DNA from: Caenorhabditis elegans
Taxonomy: Eukaryota; Nematoda; Chromadorea; Rhabditida; Rhabditidae
Assembly (NCBI RefSeq): GCF_000002985.6
Contig: NC_003283.11
Span: forward strand, 6,944,001 to 7,008,000
Reading direction: 5' to 3'
Length of the DNA: 64,000 nucleotides
The notes under the pieces are model-generated. The model did no database searches. It saw only the letters and a program-made list of their open reading frames with translations, and was not told where the DNA came from. The translations under genes and the position numbers were made by a program. Shown here piece by piece: positions 39,411 through 42,010 of the stretch (positions are counted from its first letter, which is position 1; each line of letters opens with the position of its first letter).

Positions 39411-42010
39411 TTAATGTTTAATACCTAGATATATTTGTACGTAATTTTCATCCATTATCATTTTATGAGACCCGCACATCCAAAATTGATAGTGTAGCTT
39501 TTCCTCATGTTTATCCAACAATCGAAGAGTTTCCATTATATCAGCTAGACGAACTTCTGAGCAATTGTTATTCGATTGATAACTGTTCAATTCCCGTAGT
39601 ATTACTTTTCGAATATTTGTACACAAGTTCACGCCATCGTCACTAATATCTGAGTACGCTGAAATTATTAATTAAATTTCAATTCATGAAAAATACACCC
39701 ACCGCCGTCAAACAACAGTAGAAGAAATATAGCCATATATTCCACTTTGTCGTAGTTCATTTTATAAACTGGTTCAGCAAAATCTGCGTAATAGTAGTCC
39801 CAAAATGGAGAAAATACTTTGACAGTCTCCACATCAGAAATTTTATTTCCTTTTTGCATTGAACTTCCATAAAAGTAAGCACACTTTTGGTAGTATGCAT
39901 TTGACCCGATGTAATTTTTAAATTGTTCATACTGAGCTGAGTAGTCTATTGCCGGTTCCATGAGAAGTTGCCATTTGATATAAAAGTTTGAAATCATTGA
40001 GTTTTTGTCTTCTTTACTCAATCGAGATACATCCGAGAATATTGACTCTCCGAGTTTCCATAACAAATTTGTATTAAAATTAACCATTTTAGTGATTTGT
40101 GTAAGATTATAATCGAAATAATCATCACCGCGTAATTCTTTTCGTCTTTGGTCAAAATCTACCCACTTCGCGACCGCACGATACATGTTGTTACACGATT
40201 TTGGGATGATACTATTCTGAAAAAGGGATTGCATGTGATAATTTTAGCTTTTCCAAACTTACTGAAAGTTTTGAGATCATTATAGTGGTACCCGGAAACG
40301 TATTTAAAATTTTGTTTTTTTCACGTGGTGGTTGAACTTCTGAAAAAGCTTTATCGTGTTTTAAGTTTAAAAAAATTTACTTTAGAACAGTAAAATCTTC
40401 GAGGCTACACCAAGTCAATGCATTTTTTCAGAAAATTCGCAATAATTTTTTTTAATCGAGAAGTTAAGAAAACAGAAGGAACTTACGTGTTTTACACATT
40501 CCTATTTTCATACATTTTAACATCCGACAATATCTACATGGATGTGAAGAAATAAGTCTTTGATCGCATGTGCAACTTATTTCTTGTTTTGTAGAATGTA
40601 CATATCTTCGGAAAAATGCTGCACATGCTCTGTAATCATTAACTATATATAAAAAAATAGTGTGGGTCTGTCCATAGTTTGTAGTCTATGTAGTCTTTGT
40701 AGTCTGTGACGTCACACCTAAATGCCACTGAAAATTGTGGGCGGGGTCCTGCGCCCTTCGTGTCGAGACCCATCATGGTGAGACCCATCGTGTCGAGACC
40801 CCTAATTTTTGGCGGGAATTCAAATTTTTTGTGAAAATATTTGGCGGGAATTCAAATTTTTTGTGAAAAATTTTGGCGGGAATTCAAATTTTTTGTGAAA
40901 AATTTTGGCGGGAATTCAAATTTTTTGTGAAAAATTTTGGCGGGAATTCAATTTTTCAGTGAAAAATTTTGGCGGGAATTCAAATTTTTTGTGAAAATTT
41001 TTGGCAGGAATTCAAATTTTTTGTGAACAATTTTGGCGGGAATTCAAATTTTTTGTGAAAAATATTTTGGCGGGAATTCAAATTTTTAGTGAAAAATATT
41101 TTGGCGGGAAATTCAAATTTTTAGTGAAAAAATTTTGGCGGCAAATTCAAATTTTCTGTGAAAAATATTTTGGCGGGAAATTCAAATTTTCTGAGAAAAA
41201 ATTTTGGCGGGAAATTAAAATTTTCTGAGAAAAATATTTTGGCGGAGAAAGTTCGACAAAATTCTGGAATGTTCCAGAACTTTCTAGAAACCTCGAGAAA
41301 ACTCTGGAATGTTCCAGAACATTCTGGAAAATTCGAGAAAATTCTGGAATGTTCTAGAACCTTATGGAAAATTCGAGAAAATTCTGGAATGTTCCAGAAC
41401 TTTCTAGAAAATTCAAGAATTTTCTGAAATTTTCCAGAACTTTCTGAAAAAAATTGAGAAAATTCTGAAAATTTCAATTTCGTGGAAAAATTCAGAAAAA
41501 TTCCGCAAAGTTCTAGAACCTTTCAGAAAGTTCAAAAAAACTTCAAGTTTTGATACTCCTGGAATATTCTGAAGTTTCAAAAATTAAAAAAAAGATCAAA
41601 AATTGTTAGAATTTCCAGTAAAACGCTCGCCAAAATCTTTCGGAGAGGACCGGAAAAGGGTCATATGATTTTAAGAACGTGTTGAAAATTATACGTTCAA
41701 GTAATTTAGAAATAGCTCCATGAAACTTGAGGTTTTAGAGTTGTAATTGCTTAAAGCTTAGTTATATAATATTTATGTTGCTCGAAAACTTCCGGAAAAC
41801 AGAGAAAAAAGCTTCCATCTGCAGAGAAAGGCTCAGAAATTTCAGAATTTGATTTTAGTTTTGAGAACGCCAGTCGGAGCACGCGCTTCAGCGCGTGCGA
41901 ACGGCTGGTTAATATATAATAAAAAATCATTCCAGCTGTAAACTTTACCTGCAGCAACTGCCACCATAATGTGGCTCCGATCCGTCAGCTCCGCACACTA
42001 GACATAACAT
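39411..42010 (-). CDS. Nuclear hormone receptor, cluster gene 2, with a transposon-filled intron
   Basis: Exon 1 (42010-41949) encodes the first zinc finger MLCLVCGADGSEPHYGGSCC. Intron 1, interrupting the DNA-binding domain at the same place as in its neighbours, is about 1.3 kb and contains a Helitron-like element. Exon 2 (about 40632-40488) gives ACAAFFRRYVHS to CRYCRMLKCMKIGM. A hinge exon starts VQPPREKN (about 40340). The ligand-binding domain exons include IIPKSC, LLWKLGESIFSDV, FYIKWQLLMEPAIDYS, VFSPFWDYYYADF and VEYMAIFLLLLFDGG, and the last exon ends at 39411. It is one of four closely similar tandem genes (with those at 42180, 43965 and 46256). A nuclear transcription factor role follows from the family; ligand and targets are unknown. 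Confidence 0.95.
40807..41250. repeat. Minisatellite of E2F-like GGCGGGAA units
   Basis: Fourteen units of about 30-36 bp of the form TTTTGGCGGGAATTCAAATT then TTTTGTGAAAAA. Eleven units keep GGCGGG exactly; three vary (GGCAGG, GGCGGC, GGCGGA). Later units change to GGGAAATTC. The core TTTTGGCGGGAAA matches the known E2F/DP consensus. Part of the Helitron-like element. Confidence 0.93.
41262..41424. promoter_or_regulatory. Dense array of heat-shock elements (alternating GAA/TTC)
   Basis: Over 163 bp the sequence is 10-bp periodic, with GAA at 41267, 41277, 41287 and so on to 41417, and TTC at 41262, 41272, 41282 and so on to 41422. About 30 of 33 five-base positions match; the exceptions are near 41292, 41302 and 41362. 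This is the inverted nGAAn arrangement bound by heat shock factor trimers. A weaker, irregular continuation reaches about 41560. Whether it drives any gene is unknown; it sits in an intron of NHR gene 2. Confidence 0.9.

Follow-up and report, generated by a model that had tools for sequence, protein, structure and literature searches.

In the first intron of a nuclear-receptor (NHR) gene of Caenorhabditis elegans, GAA and TTC alternate every 5 bp for 163 bp, and the locus raises the question of where such an array of heat-shock elements (HSEs) came from and whether it would make the gene responsive to heat. The window, that is, the whole stretch of 64,000 nucleotides that was analysed (C5:6944001-7008000), was compared with the genome of 100,286,401 bases in 7 contigs. 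The features on which the argument turns are as follows.

39411-40243, minus strand: open reading frames for the ligand-binding domain of the same NHR gene (Hormone_recep)
40487-40629, minus strand: exon 2 of the NHR gene, encoding the remainder of finger 1 and finger 2 (RACAAFFRR...), with the donor at 40486 placed by eye
40630-41948, minus strand: first intron of the NHR gene, 1319 nt long with 46 nt of host sequence (GTAAAG...AATTACAG)
40636-41908, plus strand: complete non-autonomous Helitron of 1273 bp, TC...CTGG, flanked by A (40635) and T (41909) of the host
40636-40806, plus strand: 5' terminal region of the Helitron, with a CRE-like TGACGTCA at 40707-40714 and 15-bp repeats at 40754-40806
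40807-41245, plus strand: tandem array of 32-35 bp units with 11 exact TTTGGCGGGAA sites (predicted E2F/EFL-1-type GGCGGGAA), all on one strand
41247-41444, no strand assigned: HSE array with a 40-bp higher-order repeat (TRF and grid count, 35/40 units)
41879-41898, plus strand: 3' hairpin GCACGCGC-TTCA-GCGCGTGC, 10 nt before the 3' end
41905-41908, plus strand: CTGG, the 3' terminus of the Helitron (CTRR), followed by host T
41949-42010, minus strand: coding part of exon 1 of the NHR gene (MLCLVCGADG...SCC)

The earlier note on this DNA had described an alternation with about three misses, and a count on a 5-bp grid bore this out; between 41262 and 41424, GAA and TTC alternate strictly in 30 of 33 slots, the misses being CTC (41292 and 41302) and TTA (41362). 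At its longest the run covers 41247-41444, and from 41262 onward its uninterrupted runs comprise 6, 11, 12 and 3 units. Each of these holds at least three alternating nGAAn units at 5-bp spacing, so that the half sites are of the HSF type, as had been claimed, and the array as a whole comprises 24 overlapping HSE trimers. Scored as hits minus misses on the GAA/TTC grid, its best segment reached 30, against 3 for the rest of the window (41246-41560 removed), no more than 5 for simulated 64-kb windows (300 in all, 100 for each of the Markov orders 1, 2 and 4) and no more than 6 for simulations matched to the composition of the array (1000 at order 1 and 1000 at order 2); a chance run was ruled out by the two sets of simulations. 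TRF, which is blind to HSEs, recorded the same stretch as a tandem repeat with periods of 40, 20 and 10, and with 5.5 copies at period 40.

Helitrons begin with TC, end with CTRR, insert between A and T without target duplication, and carry a GC-rich hairpin approximately 10-12 nt before the 3' end. All of these marks were recognized around the array, the limits having been set by comparison with an identical copy and a third copy: host A is followed by TCATTAAC at one end and CTGG by host T at the other, while the hairpin at 41879-41898 lies within a segment (41869-41908) that folds with an 8-bp stem and a z of -3.99. The last boundary was placed between CTGG and T because the shared sequence stops two T later and the third copy reads CTGG then TAAAC. 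With the host letters included, positions 40635-41910 match the minus strand of C5:6499660-6500935 exactly over 1276 bp between unrelated flanks; the twin itself (C5:6499662-6500934; locus L068, 4662-5934) is identical at 1273 of 1273 positions and lies 483,701 bp (~484 kb) away on the same contig, its array having been found first by the array search (C5:6500010-6500324, 100% identity). It adjoins an open reading frame that matches the N-terminal domain of epoxide hydrolases (EHN, E 3.3e-25), element and reading frame being on opposite strands. The array was thus rightly placed in what had been called a Helitron-like element. Zero differences over 1273 bp point to either recent movement or gene conversion. 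The third copy, near-identical and 715 bp long (C2:2387352-2388066; locus L069, 4352-5066), matches positions 1-239 of the element at 98.8% and positions 791-1273 at 99.2%; it retains 2 GGCGGGAA sites and one HSE trimer, and since almost the whole array is gone from it, the array is unnecessary for the persistence of a copy.

The PF14214 (Rep/helicase) profile found no match at the window element, which is therefore classed as non-autonomous, like the majority of Helitrons in C. elegans according to Garrigues et al. (2019, PMC6927752). HelitronY4_CE has been described as containing a 15-bp tandem repeat, CCATCGTGG(T/C)GAGAC, and a 40-bp repeat, AAAATTCTGGAATGTTCCAGAACTTTCTAGAAAAATTGGG, which occur also in an intron of R11A5.4 (Glauser, 2014, PMC4039745). 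Both repeats were recognized in the window element by eye, with some mismatches, and it is assigned to the HelitronY4_CE type by this resemblance, the family name being taken from the printed repeat consensus.

The host gene could be read once the element was removed. When the flanks were joined, the minus strand gave GTAAAGTTTACAGCTGGAATGATTTTTTATTATATATTAATTACAG, an intron of 46 nt bounded by GT and AG, and an open frame continues across it, MLCLVCGADGSEPHYGGSCC being joined to RACAAFFRRY...; the spliced translation matched zf-C4 with an E of 3.2e-11, and the two downstream reading frames, joined by hand, matched Hormone_recep with an E of 4.2e-21. The intron interrupts the first zinc finger (C-x2-C-x13-C-x2-C), falling between its Cys-20 and Cys-23. 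Hence, the array was correctly located in intron 1 of an NHR gene, but the suggestion that this intron separates two zinc-finger exons was refuted by the spliced translation and its zf-C4 match. The element is antisense to the gene and separated from exon 2 by 6 nt of intron, and the HSE array occupies 566-763 bp downstream of the ATG. The inserted end also brings in an additional AG, 13 nt ahead of the exon (40630-40660), and splicing at it would shift the frame. An identity of the gene with nhr-247, str-96 or fbxa-102 was rejected, as 7 printed primers found no exact match in the window. Elsewhere in the window, positions 31-595 hold a long (TTTAAT)n hexamer array of approximately 94 copies. 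With the ends, the identical twin, the empty site and the half sites read directly from the DNA, the array is very probably an HSF minisatellite of a non-autonomous HelitronY4_CE-type element inserted antisense in NHR intron 1.

That Helitrons carry HSF-1 sites in C. elegans was mentioned in the earlier note and is well documented. Garrigues et al. (2019, PMC6927752) report that Helitrons contain 61.4% (11,527/18,766) of the HSEs of C. elegans, that five Helitron families, including HelitronY4_CE, are bound by HSF-1, and that eight HelitronY4_CE copies have more than 100 HSEs each. Upstream of nhr-247, where 96 such HSEs are present, heat induction is given as 254-fold in N2; where the strain lacks the Helitron, the figure is 3.2-fold (p = 0.16; PMC6927752). 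The forward qPCR primer for nhr-247 has one genome match (C5:15324738), and the forward genotyping primer led to the flank of an array at C5:15320786-15321373 that has 99 of 118 units and is 83-84% identical to that of the window; the reverse genotyping primer was not found in the loci examined. The two loci are thus alike in having related HSE arrays beside an NHR gene, and they differ in that the nhr-247 array is longer, upstream of its gene and experimentally tested (PMC6927752). With the published HelitronY4_CE Hac-HSE arrays in general (PMC6927752; PMC4039745), the window array shares the 40-bp HSE and 15-bp repeats, the tandem overlapping HSEs and a non-autonomous carrier; unlike them, it is short (35 units) and lies in a first intron, downstream of the start codon, rather than in an upstream promoter.

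How unusual the array is was judged from the whole genome. A search for other copies, as had been proposed, counted 189 matches to the array, with that of the identical twin among them. Exact 7-unit alternating matches number 1000 + 1038 on the two strands, against 0 + 0 for the reversed pattern, and the window array supplies 6 + 5 of them. Thirty loci were taken from the 189 matches, by similarity and not randomly, and resolved into 22 distinct places, among which the window array and its twin are the shortest (35/40 units); the longest segment at the other places compared ranged from 43/50 to 215/259 units. The description of the array as an extreme tandem version cannot be upheld on these counts, and it is instead a real but short and ordinary example of a published kind.

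Less expected than the HSE array itself is its pairing with an E2F-type array. TRF recorded 40807-41245 as a repeat of period 32 with 13.3 copies, and of the GGCGGGAA octamers in the window, 11 are in the element and 1 is elsewhere. The octamer conforms to the EFL-1 consensus (G/C)GCG(G/C)GAA as printed in PMC3315495, and the sites are hence predicted E2F/EFL-1 sites. The same source mentions, as an unpublished result, that an E2F-type site in the Cer1 LTR is needed for germline expression. Both cases concern a worm transposon with a (G/C)GCG(G/C)GAA site, near the promoter in Cer1; Cer1, however, is an LTR retrotransposon in which one or more such sites stand singly, whereas the window Helitron has an 11-site array beside HSEs (PMC3315495). 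Genome-wide, GGCGGGAA occurs 3811 + 3387 times (reversed pattern, 404 + 450) and the longer TTTTGGCGGGAA 2041 + 1671 times (reversed pattern, 5 + 4), so that 3712 of 7198 genomic GGCGGGAA octamers (52%) sit in TTTTGGCGGGAA repeat context. For EFL-1, at least 20% of sites are reported to be in transposons (Garrigues et al., 2022, PMC8896005). When 56 of the 32-bp units from five arrays, cut at the spacer motif CAAATTT, were aligned, core columns were conserved at 0.89-1.00 and CAAATTT at 0.77-0.98; a special constraint on the E2F core was thus not supported, part of the spacer being about as conserved.

The same pairing was found in larger relatives. The PF14214 profile placed over the genome identified 7 places, 6 of them on contig 2 (L060-L063, L065, L066), and in all six, 3.0 to 3.7 kb upstream of PF14214 and on the same strand, there is a 5' end that shares 89% identity with that of the window element over 166 bp. 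One of these Rep-bearing copies (L066) has a hairpin at the equivalent place and the GAACGGCTGG end in common with the window element. The order 5' end, GGCGGGAA sites, HSE trimers holds in 6/6, with 9, 11, 11, 21, 25 and 27 GGCGGGAA sites and with 11 or 12 HSE trimers per copy, the trimers being similarly spaced across all six. One trimer starts 24 bp before TATATAAGG in 3/6; exact TATATAAGG was absent from the stretches examined in the other 3, the stretch being only 1665 bp in 4/6 of the copies. At the seventh place, on contig 6 (L067, 10 kb), neither array was found. The 5' regions of L065 and L066 also show, by eye, many CRE/ATF-like TGACGTCA among the HSEs, one of which is kept in the window at 40707.

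These copies resemble the published Helitron1_CE, a Rep-bearing Helitron with a heat-inducible transposase and HSEs in its 5' region (Schreiner et al., 2019, PMC6765114), beside which they are set by likeness. Helitron1_CE differs from the window element in that it encodes Rep/helicase and its HSEs are short and scattered. The forward qPCR primer printed for Helitron1_CE (PMC6765114; PMC6927752) has its one genome match on contig 6 (C6:8151283; locus L070, 1501-1740); the reverse primer also matches there, approximately 220 bp on, and the neighbouring reading frame is kinase-like by eye. Against L065 and L066 the best match of these primers has 6-7 mismatches. The contig-6 match may reflect a slip in the primer listing.

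From the side of the HSE arrays, the association is frequent: within 3.3 kb per locus, 19 of the 22 array loci have at least one GGCGGGAA, 18 have at least two and 3 have none. From the other side, of the 7 forward-strand clusters of at least two TTTTGGCGGGAA sites among the first 100 matches listed on contig 1, a single one is accompanied, at a distance of up to 1 kb, by an HSE run of 7 units, and two of them, L071 and L072, contain no HSE trimer. A tight coupling of the two arrays was consequently rejected; it is one-way only, as GGCGGGAA arrays often occur without HSE arrays. In L072, the GGCGGGAA array at 386-760 reaches a GCGGCTGG end followed by T, and this locus is perhaps another Helitron family with its array at the 3' end. 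No passage joining E2F-type and HSE arrays was found in the texts consulted; in PMC6927752, E2F is mentioned once and EFL never.

A transposon must act in the germline to be inherited. It is conceivable, if still improbable, that these Helitrons possess a two-key promoter in which the E2F-type (EFL-1/DPL-1) array licenses germline transcription and the HSF-1 sites provide the heat trigger, and that both arrays, as a composite E2F-HSE enhancer, are disseminated and lengthened by non-autonomous derivatives. This estimate was raised slightly from a lower one because the order of the arrays held in all six copies and not just in the first two. An architecture of this kind reportedly characterizes a developmental HSF-1/E2F programme described by Li and colleagues in 2016. 

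The HSE array itself probably derives from the promoter region of Rep-bearing Helitrons, where short HSEs would have been multiplied as a 40-bp repeat. For the Rep-bearing elements, the module is proposed to act as a promoter, with HSF-1 sites for heat and perhaps E2F-type sites for the germline; non-autonomous copies would retain the module and the two ends, with tandem growth enlarging the HSE part. Multimeric worm HSEs are reported to support cooperative binding of the HSF-1 DNA-binding domain (PMC9148306), and following heat shock HSF-1 would be expected, from the published family data, to load cooperatively onto the array. We consider it likely that HSF-1 binds the window copy.

Whether the half sites of such a minisatellite are of any consequence is less certain. 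Slippage and unequal exchange might simply resize the array without selection, any HSF-1 binding being inconsequential, and this is a serious candidate, somewhat short of an even chance, given that relatives vary from one trimer (the contig-2 copy) via 35 units to 215. Against it, the HSE trimers recur at like spacing in the six Rep-bearing copies, and at the 10-bp period of the window array, 6 core phases are 90-100% conserved across the sub-units while the 4 spacer phases are conserved at only 40-65%. In other arrays, one core phase falls to 0.74-0.76 in 4/5 and one spacer phase reaches 0.77. Measured against array-specific 40-bp consensus sequences in 28 period-40 segments (those of fewer than 32 slots dropped, and one period-20 segment outside the sums), mismatches numbered 195/7350 in cores versus 263/4900 in spacers, a twofold difference that is partly ascertained and not uniform; spacers were better kept than cores in 4/28, as passive turnover would allow. 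The half sites may therefore have mattered during growth of the array.

A direct effect of the array on the host was also weighed. Its position only 566-763 bp from the ATG, and the precedent of the related nhr-247 array, would suit a first-intron enhancer making the NHR gene or a neighbour heat-inducible; moreover, the nhr-247 element, as judged by two minus-strand GGCGGGAA sites, points away from its plus-strand gene, so orientation need not matter. This reading is nevertheless considered unlikely. The window array is far shorter than that of nhr-247 (35 versus 99 units) and lies downstream of the start, repressive marks are more abundant on genes that have Helitron HSEs (PMC6927752), and, as a rough guide only, 556 HSF-1 summits contain Helitron HSEs compared with 60 induced genes within 2.5 kb downstream (PMC6927752). 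Because bound summits so far outnumber adjacent induced genes, clear induction of the NHR gene by heat is itself thought doubtful. The published genome-wide assignment covered HSEs up to 2.5 kb upstream of start sites (PMC6927752), and an array downstream of the start codon hence falls outside that count. Receptor output might alternatively be lowered, either through heat firing the plus strand of the element and yielding RNA antisense to NHR exon 1 or through the insertion upsetting splicing near the 3' splice site. The opposite orientation of element and gene would accommodate the former, and the element end 6 nt from the exon, with its second AG, the latter; we regard this as quite improbable.

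Understood as an HSF minisatellite of a HelitronY4_CE-type element, the array is one more case of a known theme, the scattering of HSF-1 sites by Helitrons in Caenorhabditis, in a first-intron antisense site of the kind that the published upstream count would miss. Two identical elements, one in and one beside a gene, together with a third copy that is nearly array-free, offer a natural comparison. Repeats of this type supply about half of the genomic GGCGGGAA octamers, and the paired arrays raise the question of whether transcription of worm Helitrons depends on both a germline and a heat input; if the two-key reading is true, a host gene with an insertion in its first intron would come under both inputs.
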